From Chitinophaga polysaccharea (lineage in GTDB: Bacteria; Bacteroidota; Bacteroidia; Chitinophagales; Chitinophagaceae): a stretch of DNA of 64,000 nucleotides. Shown one piece after another: positions 42,707 through 63,803 of the stretch (positions within the stretch are counted from its first letter, which is position 1; each line of letters begins with the position of its first letter). Under the pieces are notes generated by a model. That model ran no database searches. It was not told the DNA's origin and worked only from the letters and a program-made list of their open reading frames with translations. Where the stretch lies: assembly GCF_902150045.1 (NCBI RefSeq), contig NZ_CABFVU010000001.1, positions 62,001-126,000 on the forward strand, read 5' to 3'. The translations under genes and the position numbers were made by a program.

Positions 42707-43960
42707 TCAAATCGTTGGTTTCGATCCTAAGAGTGCCCAGTGGGCAAAGAGCGTGGGCTGTCGGACGGATATTCCGTGCAACCACCGTATCGCTTTCATT
42801 TCACTGGCTCTCAGGTGCTTGTATTTTCGTCTTGCCCGGCGCGCAAGTTTTACATTGACTATGTGCATATAATTCACAAGTGTTGCTTTGTAAAATTTAC
42901 TGTAGTAATTAATCCAGCCGGTTAATACCGGATTGATCTCTGCCGCTACTTCCTGCAATGTATTCGTCGTTCGTTTCAGCACTTCCCATTTACCCATCTT
43001 CTCATTCATCGAGCGCATCGACCCAATGCTTACTGCCGGTAGCCAGTTGGTAAACCAAACTCCACGTTGACTATTTCGTGCCAATCGTGGTTTGAAGGTG
43101 TAGCCAGGGAAGTCGAAAGACATTTTCGTTACTCCTTGTTGCCTCCTGTTGCTATCCTTGCAGTAGACCACCTGGGTTTTCTCTGGATGCAGTTCTAACC
43201 CACATGTTTTCAGTCGATCACTTAACGATGCTTTCAGGTTTACCGCTTCTACCATACTTCCACAATGAATGATAGCATCGTCTGCGTATCTTTCAAAAGG
43301 ACAGTGCGGGTAGCACTTTTCCAGCCACTTGTCCATACTATAATGCAGTTATAAATTTGCCAGTACAGGACCAATAACTGAACCCTGGGGAACTCCTTTA
43401 GTTCTTTCCTCTATCCTTCCGTCTGATTGCTGCAACGGTGCTTTCAACCATCTTTCAATGTACAGCAGCATCCAGCGAATCTTACAATGTAGTCTGACAG
43501 CCTTCATCAACAAGTCGTGCGGAATGTTGTCAAAGTAACCTTTGATATCAACATCTACTACCCAACTCTGATTCCAGCACCGCTCTCTTGCACGCGACAA
43601 CGCTTGTAGTGCCGACCTTCCAGGCCGGTAACCATAAGAATCATCATGAAAGATCTGCTCTAACCCCGGTTCTAATAAGCCTCTTACTACTGTCTGGGCA
43701 ATTCGGTCCGATATCGTGGGTATACCCAGAGGTCTTAGTCCACCTCCTTTCTTCGGTATCTCTTTCAGTTTCACCGGTGGGGGCATGTAGCTTCCTGAAC
43801 TCATTCGGTTCCATAATTTGTACAGATGATCTCTGTATCCTATATGGAACGATTCCAGATTGATTCCGTCTACTCCACCTGCTCCCTTGTTCGATCTTAC
43901 CTGATAATAGGCTAAACTCACCAATCGGCGACTTATACTAAACGATTTTGTTTTGCTCAT
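42707..43960 (-). pseudogene. Group II intron reverse transcriptase/maturase with a nonsense codon
   Basis: From MSKTKSFSISRRLVSLAYY at 43960 the frame encodes an LtrA-type protein of about 417 codons: RT motifs (GGLRPLGIPTISDRIAQTVV, VVDVDIKGYFDNIPHDLL, KGVPQGSVIGPVLANL), YADDA at the active site, the maturase X domain and the end FAHWALLGSKPTI. A TAA at 43349-43351 interrupts LANL-stop-LHYSMD in the same frame; relatives have Tyr or Phe there, so a single base change explains it. The maturase is probably inactive unless the stop is read through. Confidence 0.85.
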
Positions 43961-44521
43961 TTCAGTACCTCCTGAGCTCCAGCTCAGTTTTCTTCCATGA
44001 AAAAAAAACTTGATAACAGCCTCCCTTCGCTCCATTCCCATTACAGGAACTTCTTTACTACTACGAAGGCTTCTGCCCCTGTGCAGGCCATCGATACTTT
44101 CTATCTTGCTGTCCTTGCAGCTTGATATTTTCTCTTAACATGCCCGCGACAGGTTCTCCTGTTCCCGGTAAACGCCTGTGTTAAGATCACGCTGTCTATA
44201 CGCCGGATGCCACAGCAACAGTAATCAGGTAACTTTGCTGCTTGTCCCAATGACGGTACTGGACATTGGTTTTGACATCTTCTTACCCTTTCGACGCCTC
44301 TATCGACAGTTCACAGTGTTCGTCTTCTTAACACACACCTGACATATTTAATATGCCTTTTCCTTTCATGCTCACTACCACAACTCTTAATTGCAGCAGC
44401 TGAAGGTGGTTTGAGGGCTGCTCCTGAAAACCGCCCCCGATGGGCCTGCCATCATCATTTACCCAGCATTGAATATCTATGATCAAAGAACTAATTTGAT
44501 AACAGCATTCATTCAGGACAC

Positions 44522-46147
44522 TCAATACCCGGGATTCTGCGTTAAATTATTATTCTTTTGTATCTCCGTTCTGGGTATTGGGAAAAGGGTACGGTTAATA
44601 TTATTGGTAGCGGCATGCGACAGCCACGATTTTTTTGTGAATGCGCCAAACCTGATCATATCAGTGCGGCGGTGCCCTTCCTGGTCAAACTCCCAGCCCA
44701 GCTCATCCAGGAACCGGCCGTAAAGCAGATCTTCACCGCCTTCATTACTGAACTTGTTATTTACGGCATCCTTCATACCATATTGATAGGTACTGCCACC
44801 TCTCAGCTGTGCACCGGTTACAACTGCCCTGGAGGGGTTAGTAACAAAATCACGTTGACGGACCTGTGTTACTATGGCGGCGGCCTCATCGGCTTTACCT
44901 AACCGGAGCAGGCTCTCTGCTTTCATCATCAGCACTTCGGCATAACGGAACAAAGGATAATCGTTGCTCAGCCGGTTTGTGGAGCCCATCTTTATTTCAA
45001 ATTTTCCAAGGCGGAAACCATGTACCGATTCTCCTTTCTCCAACCCTGGCAATTCATTTACAAAACTCAGCGGCTTACCGGCAAAATCACCCTGCGCCAC
45101 GTATAACATCTGGCCTGCAGCTGTATACTGCTGCCCTTTGATCCAGTTGTTCTGATACCGTGCATCAGCAGGATCATAGGTGCTGATGAACTGGGGAATA
45201 GCGCAGATACCTCCCCAGGGAGTATTCTTTAAATTGTAGGTGGCCTGGTTCTCCTGCTGCAATGTTTGCATGTGCAGGTCAAACGCATTCCAGTTATTGG
45301 TATAGTCTTCATCCATTGGTATAGCCAGTACTATTTCCTTTGAGCCCTGGTTCTCTGTTAAAAACACATTCTTCTGTGCAGGTTCCAGGATATACCCCGC
45401 CCCGGAATTCATTACACTGTCGCAGGCACTGATGCATTTTTCCCATTGCGGCGTGCCGGTGTATACGCCTGCATTGAGATACATCTTTGCCAGCAGGGTA
45501 AAAGCCGCCCACTTGTTGAACTTACCGTAGGTAGCCTCAGTATTCTCTTTGCTGAGCAAAGGAATATTGTCGGTAAGATCTTTCACAATAAAATCATACA
45601 CCTCTTTGCGCGTATTCTGTTCAGGCAAAAATCCGGTTGGCAGATCAAACTTTGTTACAATAGGTACATTTCCGTAGAAGTCGCACAGGATGGCATAATA
45701 CGATGCACGGAGCACTTTCAGCTCTGCCAGGGTAGCGTCCTTCTCATCAGTGATAGGGATCAGGCCGGATTCAATCTGGTAAATGATCCTGTTGCAGTTA
45801 GTGATTCCTGCATAGGTTCTCGACCAGGTTTGGTTCACCACGTCATCATCGGTAGTCCAGGTATGCCTGTGCAAACGCTGGTATACGCCGTCATCAAACC
45901 ATCCCCATGGGCGTTTTGGAATCACCAGCTGATCACTGGTTACTTCCTGTGCGCGCCAGAGACCATTCCAGTCCAGCAATATGAACCGCCATTGCGAATA
46001 TCCTGCGCCTACGAGCGCCGCTATATCATCCTTTGTAGGATTGAATTTAGTGGAGATGATAGTAGTGTATGGCGTATCTTTTAACTTGGTACAGGCCGAT
46101 AGTAAAATGATGGCCATCAGTACGTTTATTCTGCGAAGCTTTTTCAT
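44522..46147 (-). CDS. SusD/RagB-family glycan-binding lipoprotein (locus 1)
   Basis: The 541-residue protein has a lipobox (LLSAC, Cys19) and SusD-like TPR helices. RAQEVTSDQLVIPKRPWGWF, NQTWSRTYAGITNCNRIIYQ and YPLFRYAEVLMMKAESLLRL are typical, and the protein ends in LTQNPGY, the usual SusD terminus. It binds the glycan at the cell surface and caps the SusC barrel. It starts 19 bp after SusC. A group II intron is inserted directly after its TGA. Confidence 0.92.
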   Translation of the reverse strand: MKKLRRINVLMAIILLSACTKLKDTPYTTIISTKFNPTKDDIAALVGAGYSQWRFILLDWNGLWRAQEVTSDQLVIPKRPWGWFDDGVYQRLHRHTWTTDDDVVNQTWSRTYAGITNCNRIIYQIESGLIPITDEKDATLAELKVLRASYYAILCDFYGNVPIVTKFDLPTGFLPEQNTRKEVYDFIVKDLTDNIPLLSKENTEATYGKFNKWAAFTLLAKMYLNAGVYTGTPQWEKCISACDSVMNSGAGYILEPAQKNVFLTENQGSKEIVLAIPMDEDYTNNWNAFDLHMQTLQQENQATYNLKNTPWGGICAIPQFISTYDPADARYQNNWIKGQQYTAAGQMLYVAQGDFAGKPLSFVNELPGLEKGESVHGFRLGKFEIKMGSTNRLSNDYPLFRYAEVLMMKAESLLRLGKADEAAAIVTQVRQRDFVTNPSRAVVTGAQLRGGSTYQYGMKDAVNNKFSNEGGEDLLYGRFLDELGWEFDQEGHRRTDMIRFGAFTKKSWLSHAATNNINRTLFPIPRTEIQKNNNLTQNPGY

Positions 46148-46166
46148 ACGTGTTTTTTTTGGGAGA

Positions 46167-49100
46167 TTAGAAATTCAGGTTCACACCAACGGTAAACGAA
46201 CGGGTCGACGGATACTTATCGCGGTCATCTATACCCGGATTCAGCCCCAGCCTGTTCACTTCAGGATCCAGGCCTTTATACTTCGTGATAATGAAAGTAT
46301 TCAGCGAGGAAACATAGAAACGCGCCCCTTTGAGATATTTATTTTTTGTTTGGGGAAGAGAATAACCTAAAGTGATATTATCAATCTTCCAGAAATCTCC
46401 GTTCTCCACATAATAACTGTTCAGCTCAAGTGCATTTACGTTCAATACTTTTTTTCCGAAAACAGGATCATAAGCCGATTTCAGGATATTATAATTCTGG
46501 ATGGCAGGGTTCTCCATATACATCCGTTGTGAATTGAGGATCTGGTATCCAAAAGCCCCGCGCATAGTAACACTCAGGTCGAAACGTTTGTAGGAAAAGT
46601 TATTGTTCCATCCGGCATAATATTTCGGCAAACCATTACCAATTACTTTTTTATCTTCAAAAGCATGGGCAAAATTATCATAGTTCACAGGTTTACCATC
46701 TCTTCCTTCGTATATCCATTTCCCGTTATCATCAATATCAATCACCTTATATCCGTAGAAATCACCAATACCTTTACCGATGGTAACGATGCTGGTAAAT
46801 GTTTGTATAGGAATGCCCGCGGCACCGGTAGTGAAGTAAGGCGTAGTGGTTTGGTACAATTCGTTTGAAAGGCTGACTAATTTATTACTGTTAGTAGAGA
46901 AATTGACGCTGGAGCTCCAGGTAAAATCCCTGGCTTTTACCGGCACAAAATTCAGCATCACTTCCACGCCTTTGTTTTCCATTTTACCTACGTTGGCCTT
47001 GGTTCGGCGGTAAAGGTTCGGCGGACTTGGCACTTCGTATTCATACAGCAATCCCCTGATCTGCCGGTTGTATACATCCACATTACCGCTAATGCGGCCT
47101 CTCAGCAAGCTGAAATCCAGCCCGATGTTTGCCTCTGCTTTCTCTTCCCAGCGGATAAACGGGTTGGCATTGGTAGCCGGTATCAGGATGCGGGACCATT
47201 TACCATTGGTATATACATAATCGCCATAGCCGATCAATGGCTGGCTCAGGAACCCATCCTGCGGCGGATTACCGGTGATACCGTATCCAACACGCAACTT
47301 CAGGTCATCAAACAGGCCTTGCTGTTTCATGAAATTTTCGTTGGAGATCCTCCATCCGCCGGATACTGCCCAGAAATTACCCCATGGGTTTTTGGCCCCA
47401 TACAACTGGCTGGCTCCCTCTCTTCTCAAACTGGCCAGCAACAGGTAACGATCCTTGTAGTTATAATTCAGCCTTGTGAAAAAACTGACGAGGTTTGTTT
47501 CTGTTTTATAACTGCTGATATTGGCCAGCTTGTTCTTGATCCCTTCTCCCAAACCAATATTGTTATACCCGAAAACATCTGTTGGAAAATCCTGGTTATC
47601 GGAATAAGATCCGGAAGATTCATTCTCCTGGTAGCCGTATCCGCCCAGTAAAGTAAAATGGTGCTCGTTGAACGACCTGGTATACTCTGCTGTCCACTCG
47701 GTCAGGCGGTCTATAGACAGATCAGAGGCTACAGAGGCAAAACCATTCACACCGCTTTTAATATTGGAGATATGCTTCTTGGATTCCGCGTATCCTTTAT
47801 TGGAGTTAAAACGTGCATAAGAGAATAAGGCCGACAATTTCAGATTATTAATAGGTCTGTAAGTAAGGGTAGCATTCATACGGGAATTTACATTCTTCGC
47901 CTCACCATCGCTTTCATACAGCAATGCCATTGGGTTCTCATAATCGAAGTTGCCGGTTTGCTCATAGAAATCGCCATTTTCGTTACGCACCGGTTCAGTA
48001 GGATTCCTGATCACAGTTTGACGGTAGATCCATCCGTTAAAACTATTATCGCCATTGTTGTTACGGGTATAGTTATTGGTCTGGTTCAGGATACCTACAT
48101 TCAGTTTCAGTTTATCGTTGAACATGCTATGATTCACATCGATCCTGCCGGAGAAGGTATTGTTATCACTTTTCCTGAAGATACCCTGTAACGCGCGGTA
48201 GTTGGCAGATGCCAGATAGTTGGTAGTTGCATTGCCGCCACGGATGGTAAGGTTATGTACCTGTGTGAACGGTGTGCGGGTAGCTTCCTTCAGCCAGTCG
48301 GTGGCGCCGCCTGCATCCCAGGAGGCCAGTCTGGTGCCGGCCTTGATCTGGTCGCGGTAATCCTGCGCAGTAAGCATATCCAGTTTTTTAGAGATGACCT
48401 GCGTAGTAGCATAACCACTGTAATCAACGGAGTTGGAATAGGTGCCTTTGGCTCTTTTTGTAGTGATGATGATAACGCCATTGGAACCTCTCACACCATA
48501 AATGGCAGCGGAGGAGCCATCTTTCAGCACATCCATGGATTCAATATCTTCCGGGGCTACTGTTTTCAGGTCGCCGGGAATACCATCAATAATAACGAGC
48601 GGGTTGGCATTGGCGCCGAATAAAGTGGTGTTGCCACGCAGCAATATCTGGGAGCCATCGGTGGGGTTGCCGCTGGGTGTGGCAATAGTTAAACCGGCCA
48701 CTTTTCCCTGTAGTAACTGACCGGCGTCCAGTACCGGTCCTTTTACAAAGTTCTCCGATTTTACGGTAGCTACCGCACTGGTTACATCGCCCCTGCGCTG
48801 GGTGCCATAACCAATTACCACGGCTTCGCTCAAACTCGCGATGGAAGCCTTCATCACTACATCTACCGATTTTCTGCCGTTTACCGGCATTTCTACCTCC
48901 TGGAAACCCAGGTAGGAGAATACAAGTACAGCATCCGGGGCAACAGTGATATGGTATTTACCATCCACATTGGTGGTTGTTCCTGTTTGCCCGTTCTTAA
49001 TTTTCACGCTCACCCCGGGCAATGGTGCATTCTCTCCATCAGTTACTTTTCCCTGAACAGTTACTTCCTGTACAGGTGCAGCGGTCACCTCGATGATATC

Positions 49101-49478
49101 CTGCGCCGGGGCCTCTTTCTCCACGATAATGATCAGGTTATCCTTCTGCAGGTAACCGAGCTTTGTATGTTTCAGTACCTTGTCCAAAACAACAGACAAC
49201 GGCTGCCCGTTTGCCGATACTGATAGCCGGCTGTATTCCGCTACGAGCTTGTCATTATAAACAAATGAAAGACCGCTTTTCTTTTCCATCTCCGCCAGGA
49301 TATTCTGCAGGGAACGGTTTTCCAGCTGCACACTTATTCTGATGCTACTGGCTGTTTGCCCTGTTAACGCGCCTGCAAACAATAGTTGTGAACACAGGGA
49401 GATAAGGAGGAATATGCTGCAGCCGGCGCGCATCGTTTTCCGGATGGCATAGAGATGACACCAAGTGAATCGCTTCAT
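46167..49478 (-). CDS. SusC/RagA-type TonB-dependent transporter (locus 1)
   Basis: The 1103-residue protein has a signal segment (to about residue 40), an STN domain (SLQNILAEMEKKSGLSFVYN), a carboxypeptidase-like domain (GKVTDGENAPLPGVSVKIKN) and the SusC TonB-box region (VVIGYGTQRRGDVTSAVA). The plug holds DIESMDVLKDGSSAAIYGVR, and a 22-strand barrel ends in VGVNLNF. The STN domain relays a signal to FecR and the sigma factor encoded upstream. The substrate is unknown; the nearest enzymes are the GH116/GH172 operons. Confidence 0.93.
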   Translation of the reverse strand: MKRFTWCHLYAIRKTMRAGCSIFLLISLCSQLLFAGALTGQTASSIRISVQLENRSLQNILAEMEKKSGLSFVYNDKLVAEYSRLSVSANGQPLSVVLDKVLKHTKLGYLQKDNLIIIVEKEAPAQDIIEVTAAPVQEVTVQGKVTDGENAPLPGVSVKIKNGQTGTTTNVDGKYHITVAPDAVLVFSYLGFQEVEMPVNGRKSVDVVMKASIASLSEAVVIGYGTQRRGDVTSAVATVKSENFVKGPVLDAGQLLQGKVAGLTIATPSGNPTDGSQILLRGNTTLFGANANPLVIIDGIPGDLKTVAPEDIESMDVLKDGSSAAIYGVRGSNGVIIITTKRAKGTYSNSVDYSGYATTQVISKKLDMLTAQDYRDQIKAGTRLASWDAGGATDWLKEATRTPFTQVHNLTIRGGNATTNYLASANYRALQGIFRKSDNNTFSGRIDVNHSMFNDKLKLNVGILNQTNNYTRNNNGDNSFNGWIYRQTVIRNPTEPVRNENGDFYEQTGNFDYENPMALLYESDGEAKNVNSRMNATLTYRPINNLKLSALFSYARFNSNKGYAESKKHISNIKSGVNGFASVASDLSIDRLTEWTAEYTRSFNEHHFTLLGGYGYQENESSGSYSDNQDFPTDVFGYNNIGLGEGIKNKLANISSYKTETNLVSFFTRLNYNYKDRYLLLASLRREGASQLYGAKNPWGNFWAVSGGWRISNENFMKQQGLFDDLKLRVGYGITGNPPQDGFLSQPLIGYGDYVYTNGKWSRILIPATNANPFIRWEEKAEANIGLDFSLLRGRISGNVDVYNRQIRGLLYEYEVPSPPNLYRRTKANVGKMENKGVEVMLNFVPVKARDFTWSSSVNFSTNSNKLVSLSNELYQTTTPYFTTGAAGIPIQTFTSIVTIGKGIGDFYGYKVIDIDDNGKWIYEGRDGKPVNYDNFAHAFEDKKVIGNGLPKYYAGWNNNFSYKRFDLSVTMRGAFGYQILNSQRMYMENPAIQNYNILKSAYDPVFGKKVLNVNALELNSYYVENGDFWKIDNITLGYSLPQTKNKYLKGARFYVSSLNTFIITKYKGLDPEVNRLGLNPGIDDRDKYPSTRSFTVGVNLNF

Positions 49479-49512
49479 ACAAGTTAGAGTTTTGGTTAAG
49501 TAAAAGTTGGAT

Positions 49513-50448
49513 TTAGAATTGTACTACTTTATTACGTACAGTCCAGTTAAGTTTGTTGGCTTTAGCGATGGCGAAAAGGATTTTTTCCAATGAATCGGTG
49601 GAACTGAAATTTGCTGTAAAACGTATCCCCTTCGTAGCTTCATCTTTAAAAATAATTTTAACATCATAAATATTCTCCAGCATAATGGCCACGTGCTGCA
49701 GTGTTTCGTTCCTGAACACGAGCTTACCGGTTGTCCACCCGGCGATAGCTGCTGCATTCACCATTTTCTTCTGCCGGGCTCCGTTGCTGCGTTGAATCAC
49801 TGCCTGTTCATCCGGTGTAAGCAGCATTGGTAGCTCCTGCCCGGATGTTCCTACAGCTACTTTTCCACGTATAACCGTTATCGTTACTTCATCCAATGCT
49901 TTATATGCCTGTACATTAAAAGCAGTACCCAGTACTTCTGTTTGTATACCGGCGCTTGTTACAGTAAAGGGATGAGCAGGATCATTTGTTACATCAAAAC
50001 AGGCCTCTCCTTCCTGGAGTGTTATGGTCCTGTTCTCCTTAAAATTCTCCGGGTATCGGATCACTGATCCTGCGTTAAGTATTACCCCGGATCCATCCGG
50101 GAGCAACAGTTTCAGCTGTTTCCCCCTGGCTGCGGACATGGTGATATACCCTACGGTGTTTGTACTATGAAAATGCAGGTATGCCCATGTACCCAACGAT
50201 ATAATAAATATAACGGAAGCGGCTACACGCAATATTAACGGGAGATTAAAAAAATTTTGTCTTTTGATCCGCCGGTCAATACGATCTTTCAACCGGCGCA
50301 TCACCATCTCCCTGTCTACCCCCAGATCCTTTCCGCTGCCTTCTTCCGAAAGACGGTCGAACCACTGTTCCATCCACTCCTTTTGTTCCGGTGTACATTC
50401 CCCCTTCAGGTAACGTTCCAGCAGCGTGTTAAATTCTGTTTCATTCAT
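49513..50448 (-). CDS. FecR-family anti-sigma factor (locus 1)
   Basis: The 311-residue protein has a short cytoplasmic N terminus (EWMEQWFDRLSEEG), one membrane helix (LILRVAASVIFIISLGTWAY) and a periplasmic FecR domain (LLLPDGSGVILNAGSVIRYP, EGEACFDVTNDPAHPFTV, GTAFNVQAYKAL). The C-terminal DUF4974 part (VAIMLENIYDVKIIF) meets the STN domain of SusC. It holds the sigma factor inactive until the transporter is occupied. It lies 35 bp upstream of SusC. Confidence 0.92.
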   Translation of the reverse strand: MNETEFNTLLERYLKGECTPEQKEWMEQWFDRLSEEGSGKDLGVDREMVMRRLKDRIDRRIKRQNFFNLPLILRVAASVIFIISLGTWAYLHFHSTNTVGYITMSAARGKQLKLLLPDGSGVILNAGSVIRYPENFKENRTITLQEGEACFDVTNDPAHPFTVTSAGIQTEVLGTAFNVQAYKALDEVTITVIRGKVAVGTSGQELPMLLTPDEQAVIQRSNGARQKKMVNAAAIAGWTTGKLVFRNETLQHVAIMLENIYDVKIIFKDEATKGIRFTANFSSTDSLEKILFAIAKANKLNWTVRNKVVQF

Positions 50449-50542
50449 AACGGCTGTTTTTCTTTGTATTGGAACACGTGGTTATATAGAAGTGTATAAA
50501 AAGAAGGGATGGTAGTAGATGCTGGCAGTATTTTTTTGAATT

Positions 50543-51097
50543 TTATACATTCAGCTTCAGGTGAAGATATTTGAGGGCATTGCTGATCTGTTTCTTTACT
50601 GTTTTATCGGAGATATTCAGTTTATGTGCAATTTCTTTATGGGAGAGATCTTCTGTTCTGCTCAGGAGAAATACCTGCTTCATTTTCAGGGGCAGTTTAT
50701 CTATTTCACGGTTTACCAACAGGGATAATTCGTTGGCTGCCAGCTGCTGTTCAAAAAGATCATCGGCGTCTGTAAAAAGCAGGCTCCATGACTTGCGGAA
50801 ATGGTTCCTCTTTATTTCCTGGCGGATATACCGGAAGCCCCCATACCTTACGCAGGAATGGAGATAGGAGTACAGGGAGTCTACATTCTCCAGGTTGCGG
50901 CGGCGTTTCCAGAGCGACACAAATATTTCCTGCAGTATATCTTCCGCCTCTGCGGTATCCCTGATCGCCTTTACCAGATAAAAGTACAGCCGCTCCCAGT
51001 AACGCATGTATATCACATCGAAAGCTTCCCCGTTATCTTCTTTCAGCAAATCTAAAAGGATATCGTCTGCATATTGTTGAAGATGCACACCATTCAT
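50543..51097 (-). CDS. ECF sigma factor, FecI-like (locus 1)
   Basis: The start at 51097 (MNGVHLQQYADDILL) is chosen; an upstream ATG at 51169 adds a basic leader without family match. The 184-residue protein has region 2 (DTAEAEDILQEIFVSLWKRR) and region 4 (LSRTEDLSHKEIAHKLNISD, then KTVKKQISNALKYL). It belongs to the Bacteroidota FecI-like group that activates susCD operons. The FecR gene follows 94 bp downstream. Confidence 0.9.
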   Translation of the reverse strand: MNGVHLQQYADDILLDLLKEDNGEAFDVIYMRYWERLYFYLVKAIRDTAEAEDILQEIFVSLWKRRRNLENVDSLYSYLHSCVRYGGFRYIRQEIKRNHFRKSWSLLFTDADDLFEQQLAANELSLLVNREIDKLPLKMKQVFLLSRTEDLSHKEIAHKLNISDKTVKKQISNALKYLHLKLNV

Positions 51098-51170
51098 AAG
51101 TGGAAAATTAACATAAACGTGAAACCTGTCTTTACTTACGGCTTGTCCTTTCTTCCTGGAACCAAGCAAT

Positions 51171-53540: not shown

Positions 53541-54588
53541 GTAAGTAAACCCGGGCATCTCAGCCCGAGATTCTGTTAGAACCGTGCGTAACAGTCTCCC
53601 GTTACACGGCTCCGGTTATCAAATCGTTGGTTTCGATCCTAAGAGTGCCCAGTGGGCAAAGAGCGTGGGCTGTCGGACGGATATTCCGTGCAACCACCGT
53701 ATCGCTTTCATTTCACTGGCTCTCAGGTGCTTGTATTTTCGTCTTGCCCGGCGCGCAAGTTTTACATTGACTATGTGCATATAATTCACAAGTGTTGCTT
53801 TGTAAAATTTACTGTAGTAATTAATCCAGCCGGTTAATACCGGATTGATCTCTGCCGCTACTTCCTGCAATGTATTCGTCGTTCGTTTCAGCACTTCCCA
53901 TTTACCCATCTTCTCATTCATCGAGCGCATCGACCCAATGCTTACTGCCGGTAGCCAGTTGGTAAACCAAACTCCACGTTGACTATTTCGCGCCAATCAT
54001 GGTTTGAAGGTGTAGCCAGGGAAGTCGAAAGACATTTTCGTTACTCCTTGTTGCCTCCTGTTGCTATCCTTGCAGTAGACCTCCTGGGTTTTCTCTGGAT
54101 GCAGTTCTAACCCACATGTTTTCAGTCGATCACTTAACGATGCTTTCAGGTTTACCGCTTCTACCATACTTCCACAATGAATTGCAGCTTGATATTTTCT
54201 CTTAACATGCCCGCGACAGGTTCTCCTGTTCCCGGTAAACGCCTGTGTTAAGATCACGCTGTCTATACGCCGGATGCCACAGCAACAGTAATCAGGTAAC
54301 TTTGCTGCTTGTCCCAATGACGGTACTGGACATTGGTTTTGACATCTTCTTACCCTTTCGACGCCTCTATCGACAGTTCACAGTGTTCGTCTTCTTAACA
54401 CACACCTGACATATTTAATATGCCTTTTCCTTTCATGCTCACTACCACAACTCTTAATTGCAGCAGCTGAAGGTGGTTTGAGGGCTGCTCCTGAAAACCG
54501 CCCCCGATGGGCCTGCCATCATCATTTACCCAGCATTGAATATCTATGATCAAAGAACTAATTTGATAACAGCATTCATTCAGGACAC
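53541..54588 (-). mobile_element. Group II intron, copy 2 (845-bp internal deletion)
   Basis: This 1,048-bp unit is nearly identical to copy 1 at both ends: it begins at GTGTCC directly after the susD2 TGA and ends at TTAC before unrelated sequence. The segment matching 43270-44114 of copy 1 is missing; the junction is at about 54182. Domain V (53579-53612), domain VI and the EBS1-like TCGATA are kept. The loss removes part of domains II-III and most of the reverse transcriptase, so it cannot splice by itself. Confidence 0.85.
53619..54182 (-). pseudogene. Reverse transcriptase remnant in intron copy 2
   Basis: The frame keeps only the part after YADD (IHCGSMVEAVNLKASLSDRL) through the maturase domain. 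A CGA to TGA change at 53997-53999 adds a stop after GYTFKP. The polymerase core is gone with the deletion. Confidence 0.85.
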
Positions 54589-56289
54589 TCAATACCCCGG
54601 ATTTTGTACTATCAACGGATCTGTTTGTGTTTCTATATAAGGGATTGGCCACAGGTAATCCCTTGTGGCATTAAACGTGCGCACTTCTATTACCCGCATA
54701 TCTGCCCTGTTGGGTACTGCACTGTAATCAGCAATACCGTTGGCATCTATCTTCGGGGCGGCAGCCAGCAGCCCCCTGGGCACACGCCCGTATAACGGGC
54801 CTTTCATTACTTTATCAGCAATTTTCCACCGGCGGATATCAAACATCCGGAACCCTTCCATGGCCAGTTCATACAGCCGCTCCTTCCTTACTGCAGAGCG
54901 TAAGGCCGCCTGGGTGCTTCCAGGCGGGATCACCGGCATATTTACGCCAGGCCTGCCCCTCACCGCATTGATGGCCTGGTATACCGTGCCATCCAGCTCA
55001 TTGGCCTCTATCTTCGCTTCTGCATAAATAAGCAGGATCTCTGCATACCGCGCCAGGATGATGCTCAGGGTCGACTGCCGCGTGTTGTCTTTATCTTTCA
55101 GATCCACATACTTACGCCAGCAATAACCGCTGAAAGATGCATAGGCATTGGTGGCATCCTGGTTGGCAATCCGGGTAGCCGGCGTAGTATTGTAATTCCA
55201 GCACATGAGACTGTCCTTATGCGTTTCAAACTGGTAATTAAAAAATACAGATCCCGGCAGCGCAATGGTGTAGCCCAGCCGCGGATCACGGTTGGCAAAA
55301 GGTTGCTGCGGGTTGAACAACGGCGACTGATCGATGGTGAGGCCATCGGTACATTCGTAGCTGTCGACCAGCGACTGTGTCGGGATCTTATTCGAAGCGC
55401 CGCCGGCATTCCTGCACAGCAGCGGGTATGGCCCGGCCCAGTTGATAACCGGCAGCTGGTATTGCAGGGCCATGATCACTTCAGGTGAATTTTTTCCGTC
55501 GTAGCTGAATAACCGGGGATAGCTGTCGTCCAGCCTGTACACGTTCAGATCCATCACTGCTTTGGCTGCATCCGCGGCAACTTTCCACTGTTCATTATAC
55601 AGCGCAGCCCTTGCTTTTATGGTGAGTGCGGCGCCTTTGGTGGCACGACCGTAATCAGTAGCGGTATAGCTAACCGGCAACGAGGCGGCTGCACTATCCA
55701 GCTCATCGAATACAAATTTAAGCACGGCTGCTTTTTCGCTTCGGGGTACCTGTGAATTTTCCAGTGTAAGCGTATGCGTTACCAATGGCACGCCACCAAA
55801 CATCGCCAACAACTGCTGGTACATAAATGCACGTACAAAACGGGTTTCCCCCATGCTGCGCCTGTACAGCACCGGGTCGGTTACCGGCCGTACCTTCTCT
55901 GCATTGTCCAGTATATAGTTGCATCGTCCTATCACTTTATAGTATGCAGTCCATATGCCTTGTGTAAATGTATTGTTGGCATCGTGGTTTCCCATGCCTA
56001 TTTTCTGCAGGTCGCTGTTATTCCGTTCGTAGCCGATATCGCTGGCAGCATCAAACAGCAGCACCGGTGGAAAACCATCCAGTTGTGACGGATCAGCGTC
56101 TTTGTCATTTGGTTTATTCAACCCTTTATACAGGCCGTTTACTGCTACCAGCAATTCGTCCTGGTTATTAAAAAAAGCGTCATCGGAAGGACCATTTAAA
56201 GGATCTTTATCGAGATATGATTTGTTACAGGCAAATGTACCTGTAAGGGCTACAGCCACGATCACCCAACAAGTGAAATACTTTCTCAT
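54589..56289 (-). CDS. SusD/RagB-family lipoprotein (locus 2)
   Basis: The 566-residue protein has a lipobox (GTFAC, Cys21), SusD helices (NQDELLVAVNGLYKGLNKPN, ETRFVRAFMYQQLLAMFGGV, ARYAEILLIYAEAKIEANEL) and the terminus IVQNPGY. It forms the surface lid of the SusC transporter encoded 11 bp upstream. The intron copy 2 follows its TGA. Confidence 0.92.
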   Translation of the reverse strand: MRKYFTCWVIVAVALTGTFACNKSYLDKDPLNGPSDDAFFNNQDELLVAVNGLYKGLNKPNDKDADPSQLDGFPPVLLFDAASDIGYERNNSDLQKIGMGNHDANNTFTQGIWTAYYKVIGRCNYILDNAEKVRPVTDPVLYRRSMGETRFVRAFMYQQLLAMFGGVPLVTHTLTLENSQVPRSEKAAVLKFVFDELDSAAASLPVSYTATDYGRATKGAALTIKARAALYNEQWKVAADAAKAVMDLNVYRLDDSYPRLFSYDGKNSPEVIMALQYQLPVINWAGPYPLLCRNAGGASNKIPTQSLVDSYECTDGLTIDQSPLFNPQQPFANRDPRLGYTIALPGSVFFNYQFETHKDSLMCWNYNTTPATRIANQDATNAYASFSGYCWRKYVDLKDKDNTRQSTLSIILARYAEILLIYAEAKIEANELDGTVYQAINAVRGRPGVNMPVIPPGSTQAALRSAVRKERLYELAMEGFRMFDIRRWKIADKVMKGPLYGRVPRGLLAAAPKIDANGIADYSAVPNRADMRVIEVRTFNATRDYLWPIPYIETQTDPLIVQNPGY

Positions 56290-56300
56290 GATTGCTGTTT

Positions 56301-59300
56301 TTAGAAATTTACATTAACGCCAAAACTGTACACCTTTACAATGGCATAGCTATCGGCCACGCCCACAGCAGTTTCCACATCGTATCCTTTCCAGAATTTA
56401 CTGGCGGTAAACAGGTTGGAGCCGTTTACAAACACCCGCAGGCTGTTGAGCCGTACTGCCTTTACCAGGTGGGCTGGCAGGGTATACCCCATCTGCAGGT
56501 TCTTCAGGCGCAGGTAGGCCGCGCTCTTCATCCAGAAGCTGGAGATCTGCTGGTTGTTGGTACCGCCAAATACCAGCCTGGGAAATGCGGCATCCTTGTG
56601 TTCCGGTGTCCAGTAATCCTTGAAGCGTTCCTGTGCCGTACCGCCAACGGAGCTTACATAGAACGGCATGATACCGGCGCCATAGATCAGGCCGTCTACC
56701 TTCCCTACTCCCTGCAGGAAAGCGCCTATATCGAAGCCTTTCCACGATGCGTTCAGGTTAACGCCATAGGTATAGCGGGGCACTGTGTTACCGAGGATCA
56801 CTTTATCGCTTTCATTGATAATGCCGTCGCCGTTCTGGTCTTTGTATTTGATATCACCTGGTGCAATAGTACCAAACTGTGTAGCATGTTTGGCCACTTC
56901 ATCATCGCTCTGAAAAAATCCTTCTGCCTGCAGGCCGAAAATTGAGTTCACCGGGTATCCTTCCCTGCTCACCGTTACGGCCGACTGGTTAATACCGTGC
57001 ATGTCCACTACTTTATTTATCACATCAGAAACGTTAACGCCGATGTTATATTTAAAATCGCGTATTTTCCCGTCGTAATTAAGGCCCAGCTCCCAGCCTT
57101 TGTTACTTACCTTACCCGCGTTCTGGTAAGGTGCCTTTAATCCTGTTATCAACGGAATATTGAGCAGCAGCAGGATATCTTTTGTTTTGCTTACATAATA
57201 ATCTGCTGTTATGGAGAGATGGGAAAACAGGGTTACATCAAATCCTACATCACTCATCTCGGTACTTTCCCAGGTGATATTCTTATTCGCCAGTGCATCC
57301 AGCATGGCCGTATTTACAATTTGCCCGCCTATCACATAAGGACTCAGGTTCACTACCGTAGCCGAAGGATAGGTGCCAATGTTCTGGTTCCCCAGCCGGC
57401 CCCATGATGCACGCAGCTTCAGTTCATTCACCGCCGGTTTCAGCGACGCCATAAACGGTTCTTCCGAAATACGCCATCCCGCGGAAGCGGATGGGAACAC
57501 GCCCCATTTGCGGCCCTCTGCAAAACGGGAGGATCCGTCGTAACGGGTATTTATCTCCAGCAAATATTTTTCCTTATAGTTATAATTGATCCTGCCGAAA
57601 AAAGAGCGCAGCGACCATTCCTCGCCGGTGCCGCTGTTGTTCATATTAATAGCAGATCCGGCATTCAGCACAGGATAATCGGGCAGAATATAGTTATCCC
57701 TGTATGCAGAAAATGAGTCGCGGCGATAGCTGTTCTGCTCAGCGCCTGCCAGTATCTTCAGATCATGCACGCCAATTTTCTTCTGAAAGGTGAGCGTACC
57801 ACGCAGGTTATTATAAAACTCCCGCTGGCTGGAAACATCCAGGGTACTTACCTGTGGCTGTTTATAGCTGGGGGTGCCATCCGGGTGATAGGTTTGCAGC
57901 ACTTTGTTAAACTTGTTCCTGTAGGTTTGCACATATTTAGGTGCAATGTTAATGGAAGCGGTAAGCCATTCTACCGGTTGATAATTCAGGGAGGTATTAA
58001 TGCTGCCCCAGGGCGCGCTTACCCGGTTCAAACCGCCGATCTTTGCGGCTGCAGCAGGATTGGCTCCTACCCATCCTTCGCCGGTGGTGCCATTGGAATT
58101 TACCGCGAGCTGGTTAGGGGAAATATTGTTCATGTAGGCAAACACCACATCGGCGCCCAGTGCAGGCTCCGTGGTAACAGGACTGATATACTGCAGATCG
58201 AACTGCATGTTTAACTTCTTCGAAAAAACAACATCGGTATTACTGCGTATGGTAAGGCGTTTAAACTCTGTATGGTCAATCACTCCTTTCTGATCGAAAT
58301 ACCCCAGCGATACCAGCATCTTTACTTTGTCTGTACCACCGTTTACTGTTAAGAAATGGCTTTGCTGAAAACCGGAGCCTGTGAGCACCGCTTTCTGCCA
58401 GTCGGTATTGGGCAGCGAATCGGAGCTGCCGTTGCCCTGGCGACGGTACTTCTCCAGTAATTCATCCGAATATAAAGGCGAGCGGCCGGAATTTTTATAG
58501 GCTTCGTTGGCGAGCAGCATATAATCCAGCGCATTGGTAAGCGCCGGCAGGTTGGTAGGTTTTTGCCAGCCCACATAATTGTTATAGTTAACTGATAGCT
58601 TATTGCTTTTACCTCTTTTGGTGGTCACGAGTATTACGCCATTTGCAGCGCGTGAACCATAGATAGAGGCTGATGCCGCATCTTTAAGCACGGTAACCGA
58701 GGCGATCACATTGGGATCAATATTATTAATAGAACCTTCCACTCCATCTATAAGCACCAGCGGGTCGGGATTCTTCAGGGTGCCCCAGCCGCGGATACGC
58801 ACTGTTCCACCATCTCCCCCCGGCTTACCGTTGCCCTGCGTAATGGTAACGCCGGGCATGGTGCCCTGGAGCCCTGCAGTGGTTTGGCCCACCGGCCTGG
58901 CGGCCAGCACTTCACCTGACACCGTAGCTACAGCGCCGGTCAGGTTTACTTTCTTCTGTGTACTGTATCCTACTACCACCACTTCCACCAATGATTTGGG
59001 GGTAACGGACAAAGGTATACGAAAAAAAATTTCGCCTTTTACCGGTTGCTGTTTAGTAAGATAGCCGATACTGGAAAAGGAGAGCACATCATCGTCTGTA
59101 ACGCCAGGCAGGGAAAATTTCCCGTTCTCATCCGTGAGCACTCCTTTTGCCGTGCCTTTTATACCCACCGTTACACCGGGTAAACCTGTGCCGGCACTAT
59201 CGGTAACAATACCGCTAATGGTTTTGGCCGGTGATCCGTTGGCGGGTGGTGGCAGCTTTGTGCCGGGCGCCGGGCTCTTTTTGATAACCACGGTGCCATA

Positions 59301-59627
59301 CTTGATCAGGTAAGTCAGGGGCAGATCTTTCAGGCAGATCTTCAATGCTTCTTCCAGTGATTTGTTGGTGATATTCACGCTCAGTGGCGGTGTATCTGCC
59401 AGCAGCTTTTCATCGCATATAAACTGGTAACCGGTTTGTTTGCTGATGAGATCAAATACTTTGTCGAGCGGCATTTTGTTAACAGAGAGCTTCACGGTTT
59501 GTGCGCCGGCGTTAAGGGATGCAGCCAGCAGCAGCCAGGTGATGAGCCCCATCACCATCCATGTTCGTTGTGTAGCCGGCATACGGCTCCTCCTCCCGTG
59601 GGAGTGGGCAATAGTGAACAATTCCAT
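56301..59627 (-). CDS. SusC/RagA-type TonB-dependent transporter (locus 2)
   Basis: The 1108-residue protein has a signal segment near residues 25-45, an STN domain (MPLDKVFDLISKQTGYQFIC), a carboxypeptidase-like domain (GIVTDSAGTGLPGVTVGIKG), VVVGYSTQKKVNLTGAVATV, a plug with VTVLKDAASASIYGSRAANG and a barrel ending in FGVNVNF. It takes up an unknown oligosaccharide and signals through FecR. The start at 59627 gives a long leader; an ATG 15 codons later is possible. Confidence 0.93.
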   Translation of the reverse strand: MELFTIAHSHGRRSRMPATQRTWMVMGLITWLLLAASLNAGAQTVKLSVNKMPLDKVFDLISKQTGYQFICDEKLLADTPPLSVNITNKSLEEALKICLKDLPLTYLIKYGTVVIKKSPAPGTKLPPPANGSPAKTISGIVTDSAGTGLPGVTVGIKGTAKGVLTDENGKFSLPGVTDDDVLSFSSIGYLTKQQPVKGEIFFRIPLSVTPKSLVEVVVVGYSTQKKVNLTGAVATVSGEVLAARPVGQTTAGLQGTMPGVTITQGNGKPGGDGGTVRIRGWGTLKNPDPLVLIDGVEGSINNIDPNVIASVTVLKDAASASIYGSRAANGVILVTTKRGKSNKLSVNYNNYVGWQKPTNLPALTNALDYMLLANEAYKNSGRSPLYSDELLEKYRRQGNGSSDSLPNTDWQKAVLTGSGFQQSHFLTVNGGTDKVKMLVSLGYFDQKGVIDHTEFKRLTIRSNTDVVFSKKLNMQFDLQYISPVTTEPALGADVVFAYMNNISPNQLAVNSNGTTGEGWVGANPAAAAKIGGLNRVSAPWGSINTSLNYQPVEWLTASINIAPKYVQTYRNKFNKVLQTYHPDGTPSYKQPQVSTLDVSSQREFYNNLRGTLTFQKKIGVHDLKILAGAEQNSYRRDSFSAYRDNYILPDYPVLNAGSAINMNNSGTGEEWSLRSFFGRINYNYKEKYLLEINTRYDGSSRFAEGRKWGVFPSASAGWRISEEPFMASLKPAVNELKLRASWGRLGNQNIGTYPSATVVNLSPYVIGGQIVNTAMLDALANKNITWESTEMSDVGFDVTLFSHLSITADYYVSKTKDILLLLNIPLITGLKAPYQNAGKVSNKGWELGLNYDGKIRDFKYNIGVNVSDVINKVVDMHGINQSAVTVSREGYPVNSIFGLQAEGFFQSDDEVAKHATQFGTIAPGDIKYKDQNGDGIINESDKVILGNTVPRYTYGVNLNASWKGFDIGAFLQGVGKVDGLIYGAGIMPFYVSSVGGTAQERFKDYWTPEHKDAAFPRLVFGGTNNQQISSFWMKSAAYLRLKNLQMGYTLPAHLVKAVRLNSLRVFVNGSNLFTASKFWKGYDVETAVGVADSYAIVKVYSFGVNVNF

Positions 59628-59678: not shown

Positions 59679-60941
59679 TTAGTTTATAGTGACGGGCATT
59701 ACGGTGATACGGTTTCCATTGATGGTGAAATGCACCCTTCCTGTTTGTTCCATTAATTCCAGCAGTTGCTCAATGTTTTCTTTGCGGGTCATACTGCCAT
59801 ACATCCTGATACCTGAAACATCGCCTTTGTATTCGATCTCCACATCATACCAGCGTGCAATCTGCCGCATGATCACCGGGATCTCGGCTTTGCGGAACCT
59901 GAACTGTCCTTCTTTCCAGGCCATCACTTCTTCCATTTCCGGATGGGTAATTAAAAAACGGTCTTCTTTCCCTGCTATACTCGCCTGCTGGCCGGGTTTC
60001 ATCATAACCGAAGCAGCACCCTGTGTTACACGGACAGCGCCTTCCAGCAAGGTGGTTTTTATGCTGGCTTCATCGGCATAAGCCATTACATTAAACTGAG
60101 TGCCCAGCACTTTCACTTCAATGCCGGATGTTTGCACAATAAATGGCTTTTCCGCATGCTGTGCAATTTCAAAATATGCTTCGCCGGTGAGCATTACCGT
60201 TCTGCTGTTGCCGGTAAATGCAACGGGAAATTTCAGTGAAGAAGCAGCATTCATCCAAACCTGGCTGCCATCGGGTAATACCACCTGGTATTGCCCGCCT
60301 TTGGGTGTGCGGATGGTATTATACTCAGGAGCGGCGTTGCTGTTACCGTTGACAGCGTGATAAGCCAGCCGGCCACTGTCGAGTTTTATGATCTTTGTAC
60401 TGCCCTGCTGGCCTACAGTGCCTGCGCCAGCTTCATCCAGCACAATAGTACTGCCATCTGCAAGGATCAGCTCTGCTTTATGACCACCCGGTTTTATCTC
60501 CGTACTTTTCTTCAGCACTAACGTTTTTGGCTGTACGTAATAATAGCGCCAGGTATAAACGCCCGCCAGGATACAAGCCAGCACTGCGGCCGCGGCCATT
60601 GTTCTATAAAAGGTGCGCAGATTTTTCCTGGAGAGATGGCGGAGGTTATCTTCTTCCGGCATCGCTTGCTGCGCAGTAATATCCGTTTCTCCAGGATCAT
60701 CTCTCCGTACCAATGCCTGCCGTAATGCAGCAGTTGCCATCACTTTATCGAACTGCTGCTGTAAATCAGGGTCCGGAGGAGTGGTGTACCTGTTTTCCGC
60801 AAGTATGCCTGCAATCATTTCTTCCAGTGCCGGCCCGGTATGTTCCGTTTGCATCAATACCTGCAGGCGCCTGCTTTCCCCAGGGGTGAGCCGGTTGCCG
60901 AGATATTTCTCCAATAAATCTTTTAACTCATCATGTAACAT
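59679..60941 (-). CDS. FecR-family anti-sigma factor (locus 2)
   Basis: The 420-residue protein is longer than that of locus 1. It has a cytoplasmic part of about 110 residues, a membrane helix (FYRTMAAAAVLACILAGVYT), the FecR domain (AELILADGSTIVLDEAGAGT, LPDGSQVWMNAASSLKFPVA, GEAYFEIAQHAEKPFIV, GTQFNVMAYADEASI) and DUF4974 (IMRQIARWYDVEIEYKGDVS). A promoter matching those of the sigma gene lies about 50 bp upstream. Confidence 0.92.
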   Translation of the reverse strand: MLHDELKDLLEKYLGNRLTPGESRRLQVLMQTEHTGPALEEMIAGILAENRYTTPPDPDLQQQFDKVMATAALRQALVRRDDPGETDITAQQAMPEEDNLRHLSRKNLRTFYRTMAAAAVLACILAGVYTWRYYYVQPKTLVLKKSTEIKPGGHKAELILADGSTIVLDEAGAGTVGQQGSTKIIKLDSGRLAYHAVNGNSNAAPEYNTIRTPKGGQYQVVLPDGSQVWMNAASSLKFPVAFTGNSRTVMLTGEAYFEIAQHAEKPFIVQTSGIEVKVLGTQFNVMAYADEASIKTTLLEGAVRVTQGAASVMMKPGQQASIAGKEDRFLITHPEMEEVMAWKEGQFRFRKAEIPVIMRQIARWYDVEIEYKGDVSGIRMYGSMTRKENIEQLLELMEQTGRVHFTINGNRITVMPVTIN

Positions 60942-60989
60942 AAAACCGGGTGCAAAAACAACACTCTCATGAAGGGTTGTAATAATAAA

Positions 60990-61015
60990 GACGAAAAAAG
61001 AATGAACGGGAATCC
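60990..61015 (-). promoter_or_regulatory. ECF-type promoter before fecR (locus 2)
   Basis: On the minus strand GGATTC (61015-61010), 16 nt, then CGTC (60993-60990) followed by TTTAT. Two other copies with the same spacing are at 61690 and 63778. Confidence 0.6.
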
Positions 61016-61063
61016 TTTATTACCGGAAAATTGTTATACTTCGTTTACCCGGTAACGTTATAC

Positions 61064-61630
61064 TCATGTAACATGCTCCGCTCTTCTGCCCATATATTTC
61101 CGGATGGCTGCAATAGACCTTGCAATGTAATTTTTGGAAGTTACCCGGGAGATATTCATCTGCCGGGCAATTTCATCGTGCGACATGCCCTGGAAACGGC
61201 TCAGGCGGAAAGCCAGCTGCAGCTGGGTGGGCAACTGGTTAATAGCTGCATGCAGCTGGCCTTCTACATCTTTCAGCTCCAGTTTATCCTGTGCGGATGG
61301 AAGGTCGGATGCCATGGATACATGCTGCCCTTCTTCCTGTACAGTAGGTAATACCCTTTTCCTGAACTCATCCAGGATGAGATTCTTTGCGGTGGTATAC
61401 AGGAAAGCATCGAAACGCTGTACTCCCTGCAACCGCTCCCGGTTCATCCATATTTTGATAAAGATCTCCTGTGTCAGGTCTTCTGCAAGCACAGGCGACC
61501 TAACAAACTGCAGGGCATTGGCGTACATCCGGCTCCAGTAATGGTTAAATAACCGCTGGAAGGCAGGCTGATCCCCTGCTGCCACACGCAGTAACAGCTC
61601 TTTTTCATTATGTGGACTATCTTTCGGCAA
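61064..61630 (-). CDS. ECF sigma factor, FecI-like (locus 2)
   Basis: The 188-residue protein has region 2 (SPVLAEDLTQEIFIKIWMNR) and region 4 (LSRFQGMSHDEIARQMNISR, then VTSKNYIARSIAAIRKYM). It should activate the susCD operon downstream. A promoter of the same type as those before fecR and the FAD oxidoreductase gene lies 60-85 bp upstream, so it probably drives its own transcription. Confidence 0.92.
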   Translation of the reverse strand: MPKDSPHNEKELLLRVAAGDQPAFQRLFNHYWSRMYANALQFVRSPVLAEDLTQEIFIKIWMNRERLQGVQRFDAFLYTTAKNLILDEFRKRVLPTVQEEGQHVSMASDLPSAQDKLELKDVEGQLHAAINQLPTQLQLAFRLSRFQGMSHDEIARQMNISRVTSKNYIARSIAAIRKYMGRRAEHVT

Positions 61631-61689
61631 GGAAGGTCATGGAATTTATTACAAAATAATCATTTCGCGGAATTACCAGTATTTATAAA

Positions 61690-61715
61690 GACGGTAAAAA
61701 AAATAGCCCGAATCC
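61690..61715 (-). promoter_or_regulatory. ECF-type promoter before sigma gene 2
   Basis: On the minus strand GGATTC (61715-61710), 16 nt, then CGTC (61693-61690) followed by TTTAT. It lies in the gap between the FAD oxidoreductase stop and the sigma start. Confidence 0.6.
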
Positions 61716-61743
61716 TTCCTGCTTCTCTTTTTTACTTAAATAT

Positions 61744-63732
61744 TCACCTGGGCACAAATAATACCGCATCTGCCGCCACAATCCCCTCTGTTTTGTGATT
61801 ACCTATTTCCACATAGGCGCCGGTACCGGCCTTCAGCTGGTAGGTGCCCAGGCTTACCCATTCTCCCGATGTTTGCCCCTCTACTTTTATACTGGCTGCT
61901 GTAATTTCTACTTCTTTCACTGTGCTGCCATCAAACACCTTTACATGCGCATTGCCATCCAAACCGGGCAGGCGGGGCACATAGGTAAATACTTCATACT
62001 TACCGGCCCGCTCAATGGCCGGTGAAAAGCGCGCTGATTTGGGTACCGCCCCTTTGCTGTCGTCCGTGAGCATAGTAGGGCCATAACAGCCATGCACCAT
62101 TTTTTTCCAGTCCCCTTTCACCGTTACATGCTGGGCATCGTTGTCGTCCACCAGTATTTCGGCAGGACTGTTATCTGCCAGCGGATTAGTGCGCAGCATA
62201 GTCTGCACTTTCTGTACATCTGCTTCCTGTACGGGAACACGCTGATCGATGGATACCACTGCTGCTGTGGCAGCGGACTGCGCCAGCACCATAAACACCG
62301 GCTCCATACGGATAGAGCCATAGGCAATATGCGAGGCCGATAAACAAACCGGTACCAGCACATTTTTTGCGTCTTCCGGCTTTGGGATAATAGACCTGTA
62401 AGATACCGGGTATGGCCCGAAGCCCCCTTTCTGCACATCTCCCTCATTTTTCACCATCCCATTTACCACTATGCGCTGGCAGTTATGGGAGTCCATTGTA
62501 TAAGCGGCCATCCCCACGGCATCATTTACTTTTTCCCGGCCTTCGCAATTGGCCTGGGTCATCACGTAAGCGCCTATCATACGTCTTGCTTCACGTATAT
62601 ACAGCTGCGGCGACCAGTGCCCATTGTCGGTGTACTCATCTTTCGGGTATCCCCATTGCAACATTTCCTTACGGAGATGGGCGGGTATCCGTTCATCATG
62701 CCCTATAAAATATAGCAGCCCTTTAGTATAAAGCTCGTGCTCACGTACGATCTCTTTCCGGGTAGCGGGATCTGCTTCCGGGTAGTTGTAGTTCGTCCCG
62801 ATCATATCAGTGGAAAAAGCCCCGTAATTGTTGATGTCCGTTTTCCCGTTGGGCATGAGGTCTATCTTGAGATTGGGTTTCAGCGCTTCCGGTTTGGTGG
62901 CGTTCAGGAGACGGATCAGGAGCTCATAGCGCGACGGATCATAGTCTTCCGGTTTGGTAATAGGAATACGGTTTTCCGGGCGGTTGCTCAGGCATATCCT
63001 GAAATTATACGCCTGTACCTTTTTATCGCCGGAGCCTTGCGCTGCCAGCGTTTCGCTGCTGATACCCCATAACAGTCCGCTTTCAGGCTTGCCTGGTATT
63101 TTGTACGGGTCCACCCCATCGGGGAACTGGTGTTTATCGAGGAGCTGCACGCCGTTATAGGTTTCCTGGTACTGCGCGTTGGCTTCCCGGCCTATTGTAT
63201 AGGAGATACCGGCTTTTGCCATCAGGTCGCCTTCATAGGAGCAATCTATAAACATTTTGGCTTTCACCACCTGGGCAGCGGGGCCGTCTACTGTTATTTC
63301 CGTAACATACCCGTTTTGTTTTACTGCCTTGCTGATAGTATACCCATAAAGTACCTCTACGCCGGCAGCTTTGATATACTGCTGGAAGATAGCCTCCGCA
63401 ACGTGAGGCTCAAAGATCCACTGTTCCAGTTTCCCGTAATGGGCGCCGATCCGGCGGTAAAAATCGCGCGATAACCCGGTGATGGCATATTTGTTACCAA
63501 TATCGGTATAGCCCAATCCACCGGATGTAAGGCCTCCCAGGTGTTTTTCCGGTGATACCAGCAATACTGTTTTGTGTAACTGTTTTGCCGTATAAGCTGC
63601 TATTACCCCCGCAGAGGTGCCGCCGTATACGCAGATATCCACCTCCCTGGGAGGAGCCATAAATCCGTAACTGCCAAGCGGAAGGAGATAAGCTGTACAT
63701 AAAACGAGGATAGAAAAGAGTTTGATTTTCAT
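61744..63732 (-). CDS. FAD-dependent oxidoreductase with C-terminal golvesin-like domain, exported
   Basis: After a signal peptide (to about residue 24) comes the dinucleotide loop VDICVYGGTSAGVIAAYTAK and HLGGLTSGGLGYTD, as in PF12831-type FAD oxidoreductases. CSYEGDLMAKAGISY and the segment with YIREARRMIGAYVMTQANCE are also typical. The last 130 residues (AGKYEVFTYVPRLPGLDGNA, then GEWVSLGTYQLKAGTGAYVE) match golvesin/xanthan-lyase-like beta domains that bind sugars. It may oxidise a glycan component in the periplasm. Its own ECF-type promoter ties it to the downstream sigma-FecR-SusCD locus. Confidence 0.85.
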   Translation of the reverse strand: MKIKLFSILVLCTAYLLPLGSYGFMAPPREVDICVYGGTSAGVIAAYTAKQLHKTVLLVSPEKHLGGLTSGGLGYTDIGNKYAITGLSRDFYRRIGAHYGKLEQWIFEPHVAEAIFQQYIKAAGVEVLYGYTISKAVKQNGYVTEITVDGPAAQVVKAKMFIDCSYEGDLMAKAGISYTIGREANAQYQETYNGVQLLDKHQFPDGVDPYKIPGKPESGLLWGISSETLAAQGSGDKKVQAYNFRICLSNRPENRIPITKPEDYDPSRYELLIRLLNATKPEALKPNLKIDLMPNGKTDINNYGAFSTDMIGTNYNYPEADPATRKEIVREHELYTKGLLYFIGHDERIPAHLRKEMLQWGYPKDEYTDNGHWSPQLYIREARRMIGAYVMTQANCEGREKVNDAVGMAAYTMDSHNCQRIVVNGMVKNEGDVQKGGFGPYPVSYRSIIPKPEDAKNVLVPVCLSASHIAYGSIRMEPVFMVLAQSAATAAVVSIDQRVPVQEADVQKVQTMLRTNPLADNSPAEILVDDNDAQHVTVKGDWKKMVHGCYGPTMLTDDSKGAVPKSARFSPAIERAGKYEVFTYVPRLPGLDGNAHVKVFDGSTVKEVEITAASIKVEGQTSGEWVSLGTYQLKAGTGAYVEIGNHKTEGIVAADAVLFVPR

Positions 63733-63777
63733 ACGTGAATAAATAACCGCCCTTTGGAAGACCGCTATATGTATAAA

Positions 63778-63803
63778 GACGGAAAAAAATGTAACAGGAA
63801 TGC
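63778..63803 (-). promoter_or_regulatory. ECF-type promoter before the FAD oxidoreductase gene
   Basis: On the minus strand GCATTC (63803-63798), 16 nt, then CGTC (63781-63778) followed by TTTAT. It differs from the other two copies at one base of the -35 element. The start codon is about 46 bp downstream. Confidence 0.6.

Follow-up and report, generated by a model that had tools for sequence, protein, structure and literature searches.

Gene content of the locus

The window analysed here is a stretch of 64,000 nucleotides from Chitinophaga polysaccharea (G000:C1:62001-126000). It carries on its minus strand a module of five genes, encoding, in this order, an FAD-dependent oxidoreductase, an ECF sigma factor, a FecR-like regulator, a SusC/RagA transporter and a SusD/RagB lipoprotein, separated by gaps of 113, 122, 51 and 11 bp (Table 1). 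Profile matches bore out the identities assigned to the first three genes in a first-pass annotation of this DNA. The sigma factor contains region 2 (PF04542, 1.6e-15) and region 4.2 (PF08281, 5.2e-15) as its only domains and is 188 aa long, as is characteristic of ECF (group IV) sigma factors, which measure about 190 aa. It scored 127.4 bits against TIGR02985, a Bacteroidota sigma subfamily, narrowly above the cut-off of 126.4, and 60.2 bits against NF041727, the equivalog model for the ferric citrate sigma factor FecI, well short of the cut-off of 260. The two partners expected for surface signalling of the FecI type are present: the adjacent regulator has both FecR and FecR_C domains, and the gene set includes a TonB-dependent transporter with an STN domain (SusC residues 67-117). 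Polysaccharide utilization loci combine a SusCD pair, found here, with degrading enzymes, which are absent from the five genes that four species share in this arrangement; as this module includes no glycoside hydrolase or lyase, glycan import is an assumption.

Table 1. Genes and predicted promoters of the module, with positions in the window
Feature	Positions	Strand	Basis
P(FAD), predicted ECF-type promoter	63773..63803	-	GCATTC-N16-CGTCTTTAT
FAD-dependent oxidoreductase	61744..63732	-	PF12831 9.1e-108; Golvesin_C 3.3e-20 (Pfam)
P(sigma), predicted ECF-type autopromoter	61685..61715	-	GGATTC-N16-CGTCTTTAT
ECF sigma factor, 188 aa, TTG start	61064..61630	-	Sigma70_r2, r4_2; TIGR02985
P(fecR), predicted ECF-type promoter, likely also driving susC and susD	60985..61015	-	GGATTC-N16-CGTCTTTAT
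FecR-like anti-sigma factor/sigma regulator	59679..60941	-	FecR 3.5e-24; FecR_C 1.1e-19
SusC/RagA TonB-dependent transporter, N-terminal STN signalling domain	56301..59627	-	TIGR04056 936.8 bits; STN 1.9e-08
SusD/RagB surface lipoprotein	54589..56289	-	SusD_RagB 4.2e-46

Several other features of the surrounding DNA and of the sigma proteins were recorded. A second set of sigma factor, FecR, SusC and SusD genes (44522-51169) follows after 3.4 kb on the same strand, with no GGATTC/CGTCTTTAT sites. ORF fragments resembling the reverse transcriptase/maturase of group II introns were observed at 53619-54317, directly behind susD, and at 42707-44041; C. ginsengisegetis has no such insertion behind susD. 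A short, strongly hydrophobic C-terminal tail (e.g. ...DIVSFLLFLLLLLK), possibly a contact with the membrane or with FecR, is present in 43 of the 101 ECF sigma ORFs of the genome. The orthologues of C. hostae and Chitinophaga sp. BIN2 have this tail, and the sigma factors of the window and of C. ginsengisegetis lack it.

Promoter-like sites upstream of three genes

The first-pass annotation had placed three sites on the minus strand, upstream of the oxidoreductase, sigma factor and fecR genes, and all three were recovered exactly. The full pattern, G[GC]ATTC-N16-CGTCTTTAT, occurs exactly three times in the whole 7.62 Mb genome, always at this locus, and allowing one mismatch yielded a single additional site genome-wide. 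CGTC ends 45 bp before the start codon of the oxidoreductase gene, 59 bp before that of the sigma gene and 48 bp before that of fecR. Since the fecR-susC gap contains no matching site, the promoter predicted before fecR is probably also that of susCD, a role that had been left out when this promoter was proposed.

Within the window, even the core GSATTC-N16-CGTC was overrepresented (three occurrences versus 0.16 expected, with a maximum of two among 100 shuffles). Across the genome, the short core G[GC]ATTC-N16-CGTC, which had been suggested for a genome scan, gave 21 matches versus 22 for the reversed control. The short core is thus unspecific, and a scan based on it would mislead; specificity is provided by the extended -10 element. 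The core lacking TTTAT was therefore dropped as a scan motif, as was a looser one-mismatch pattern, also at background level (20 matches versus 26 in the reversed control). Several matches to GCATTC-N16-CGTC, such as that at G000:C1:478005-478030 in the genome of the window, share a GCATTCAGCCATAC...CCGTC appearance; such background matches appear to reflect a conserved FecR coding motif, DG.xVWxNA, read on the opposite strand.

Shuffled sequences gave RNA folds at least as good as those predicted for the three leaders. The part of the sigma leader directly preceding the TTG start (window positions 61631-61659, minus strand), TTATTTTGTAATAAATTCCATGACCTTCC, is identical in four species, and the sigma start is overlapped by a short reading frame that begins with ATG and is out of frame; this leader has no stable RNA fold.

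Conservation in related species

The nearest named relative found for the genome of the window was C. ginsengisegetis. The same gene order, adjoining folD, was found in this species (L046), C. hostae (L047) and Chitinophaga sp. BIN2 (L048, apparently one and the same contig as L158), and the sigma proteins of these three species are 76-91% identical to that of the window. In the alignment of the leaders from the four species, GGATTC and CGTCTTTA are retained before both the sigma gene and fecR, with changes at most spacer letters, and both elements and their 16-bp spacing are maintained throughout. The site before the oxidoreductase gene is the least conserved: CGTCTTTA and ATTC are kept, the latter preceded by two variable letters (GC, AC, GC, GA), giving a -35 element of ACATTC in C. 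ginsengisegetis, GAATTC in isolate BIN2 and GCATTC in the remaining species. Judging from the alignment, the leader pattern is a classic promoter footprint. The short core does occur at background level and the case for promoters is built on sequence, but repeats arising by chance or from duplicated DNA with no promoter function are a highly improbable explanation, given a two-block structure that is conserved across diverged spacers and identically placed and oriented in the four species, and a full pattern with almost no background.

Association of the sites with the sigma factor

The sigma factor was detected (E ≤ 1e-90) in four of 79 Chitinophaga genomes, and a further three contain a 57%-identical relative; among 394 sampled Chitinophagaceae genomes, none other than that of the window gave a match at E ≤ 1e-55. 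The exact pattern GSATTM-N16-CGTCTTTAT had 22 matches in the 79 Chitinophaga genomes. Eleven of the 12 intergenic matches lie upstream of oxidoreductase, sigma or fecR genes belonging to this sigma factor or to its 57%-identical relative (seven genomes), and the other ten matches are all located inside ORFs, in other genomes lacking the sigma factor. The one intergenic match elsewhere is an exact GGATTA-N16-CGTCTTTAT in C. hostae (L222, 4196-4226; G023:C18), directly before a set of genes for an MFS transporter, a GMC oxidoreductase and a Gfo/Idh/MocA protein. Its spacer is similar to those of the GGATTA promoters that precede fecR in other species. The 24 homologous MFS loci retrieved all lacked a site with fewer than two mismatches, so this match may be due to chance.

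The 57%-identical relatives have GGATTA-N16-CGTCTTTAT before fecR only, together with a nearly identical recognition helix, and in more distant sigma factors (46% identical) the helix is a different one and fecR is preceded by GCTCCC-N16-CGTCTTTAT. The region-4.2 helix and the -35 element can thus be paired as NISRVTSKNYIARS with GGATTC, NISKVTSRNYIARS with GGATTA and GISRESVKSHIVRA with GCTCCC, a pairing drawn from few independent sigma types. As the -35 element varies with the helix that reads it and CGTCTTTAT remains constant, the three sites of the window are best read as cognate promoters of this sigma factor. The earlier proposals that the sites are ECF-type promoters of a regulon including the sigma gene itself, and that the sigma gene and fecR have separate promoters, are supported by the retention of the sites in four species, by their co-occurrence with the sigma gene and by the -35/region-4.2 pairing.

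The restriction of the GGATTA site to fecR in the 57%-identical relatives, together with the drift of the -35 element before the oxidoreductase gene, would fit a situation in which the fecR promoter is the functional target, with weak or vestigial sites at the other two genes and the sigma factor produced mostly from another promoter. We consider this unlikely, because the sigma site has kept both of its elements in all four species despite its diverged spacer, and no housekeeping-type site of Bacteroidota (TTG-N17-23-TANNTTTG) was found in the locus.

The predicted autopromoter among the sigma-fecR loci of the genome

The ECF sigma loci of the genome were collected, and 79 were found to have a fecR-like gene behind the sigma gene. 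For each, a shared two-block motif was sought between the region upstream of the sigma gene and that upstream of its own fecR, with all mismatched pairs serving as the null distribution; the plain match count was backed by a composition-weighted version, with orthologous loci as positive controls. The locus of the window yielded p = 0.0003 and was the only one of the 79 with p < 0.01, and values of p < 0.05 were reached by three loci, versus four expected. The orthologous loci from other species all gave p ≤ 0.004; in the composition-weighted test, the best-scoring match for BIN2 (L048/L158) aligned around the same GGATTC in a shifted register. At the sensitivity of this test, the predicted autopromoter appears to be confined to the locus of the window. 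CGTCTT was modestly enriched in the sigma-fecR gaps (seven forward and one reverse, versus 2.9 expected). This enrichment suggests that fecR is repeatedly preceded by a sigma-dependent promoter at such loci and that the one before the sigma gene is an addition. Absence of autoregulation of the sigma gene is a usual, but not strict, trait of FecI-type systems, and the presence of a conserved, matching site before the sigma gene argues against such an absence here.

The genome contains about 100 ECF sigma genes, CGTC-type -10 elements are common to other sigma loci, and CGTCTT is found in a few other fecR upstream regions. Other ECF sigma factors may therefore cross-recognise the sites, and could even be their main readers, making the sigma gene the target of a cascade rather than self-activating. 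This last possibility is improbable: the combination of a GGATTC -35 element with CGTCTTTAT is found nowhere else in the genome, exact intergenic matches in the 79 genomes are almost exclusively at this sigma factor or its nearest relative, and the -35 element differs where region 4.2 differs. The sigma factor of the window very probably activates its own gene, fecR with the import system, and the redox enzyme.

The FAD-dependent oxidoreductase

The N-terminal stretch of the oxidoreductase resembles a signal peptide, and only its C-terminal domain matched a solved structure, that of a Paenibacillus xanthan lyase (6f2p). Homologues (E ≤ 1e-150) were found in 55 of the 79 Chitinophaga genomes. 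At 15 of the 21 non-orthologous loci examined, susD lies directly upstream of the homologue; three of the 21 (L165, L175 and L176), two of which are among the 15, have sigma and fecR genes directly downstream. In the window, the gene is located upstream of the sigma gene and has its own predicted promoter. The inclusion of this enzyme had been taken to suggest a function beyond glycan import; this argument is weak, because close homologues are usually found directly behind susD, marking the enzyme as an ordinary SusCD partner. A literature search for PF12831 enzymes in such loci returned nothing. The genome of the window also encodes a paralogous FAD oxidoreductase, 63% identical, adjoining an MFS transporter (G000:C1:1778539-1781780), and the C. 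hostae MFS protein mentioned above is most closely related to this transporter (80%).

Discussion

The module is likely to be a surface-signalling set of the FecI/FecR/TonB-transporter kind, with a sigma factor that would recognise three G[GC]ATTC-N16-CGTCTTTAT promoters, including that of its own gene. By analogy with this family, the binding or transport of a substrate by SusCD would be signalled by way of the STN domain to FecR, located in the inner membrane, and FecR would release or activate the sigma factor. The active sigma factor would then transcribe its own gene, fecR-susC-susD from the fecR promoter, and the gene for the oxidoreductase, which probably is exported and acts on the same substrate. 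We infer the transcription, the signal and the substrate in this scheme from the locus and its protein families. Self-transcription of the sigma gene should amplify the response, and co-induction of FecR would act as a brake and reset the system. Positive feedback had been proposed for this locus; the site before the sigma gene is indeed present, but the net sign is a matter of inference, with the fecR promoter also producing the anti-sigma factor. As FecR would rise with the sigma factor, the feedback may be amplifying, homeostatic or both.

The arrangement resembles that of FecI/FecR/FecA of E. coli and related iron systems, in which an ECF sigma factor, a FecR-like regulator and a TonB-dependent transporter with an STN domain are encoded together and the sigma factor drives the transporter genes. 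In those systems, fecIR transcription is not autoregulated, and such sigma factors do not activate the genes encoding themselves or the anti-sigma factor (PMC9249621), a contrasting case being that of HasI, which acts on hasS (PMC9249621). Here, by contrast, sites are present before both the sigma gene and fecR, and the partner is a SusCD pair with an FAD enzyme. The module of sigma factor, FecR-like anti-sigma factor, SusC and SusD is also that of the SusCD-linked ECF systems of Bacteroides. The target promoters of Bacteroides ECF sigma factors are poorly defined, whereas conservation defines a precise two-block promoter here; as a motif search for SigW-1 sites in a regulon study of B. thetaiotaomicron was not significant (PMC12596196), a defined promoter for a sigma factor of this kind has some value. 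Transcription of the sigma factor's own operon from promoters with a -35 element and a CGTC-type element is, moreover, a feature of autoregulated ECF sigma factors, such as RpoE. ECF operons are mostly autoregulated, with around 55% of ECFs predicted to be so (PMC8103513), and FecI-like ECFs are named as exceptions (PMC8103513). The sigma factor of the window is linked to FecR and a TonB-dependent transporter and yet looks autoregulated; with its own upstream site, it would combine a FecI-type system with the autoregulation usual among ECF sigma factors.

The conserved, precise promoter and its sigma factor form a directly testable pair in a phylum, Bacteroidota, in which the promoters of SusCD-linked ECF sigma factors are poorly known, and the sequence pairs connect the letters of the -35 element with residues of region 4.2. 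One cell also offers a natural comparison between a single system predicted to be autoregulated and about 78 apparently non-autoregulated ones. We tentatively suggest, as a possibility rather than the expected outcome, that rewiring within a single small lineage of Chitinophaga has turned a FecI-type sigma factor into a true self-activating switch, with a separate copy of its promoter for each of the sigma factor, the anti-sigma factor with the transporter, and the enzyme; induction of this nutrient system might then be hysteretic or all-or-none, unlike that of the other sigma-fecR loci of the cell.
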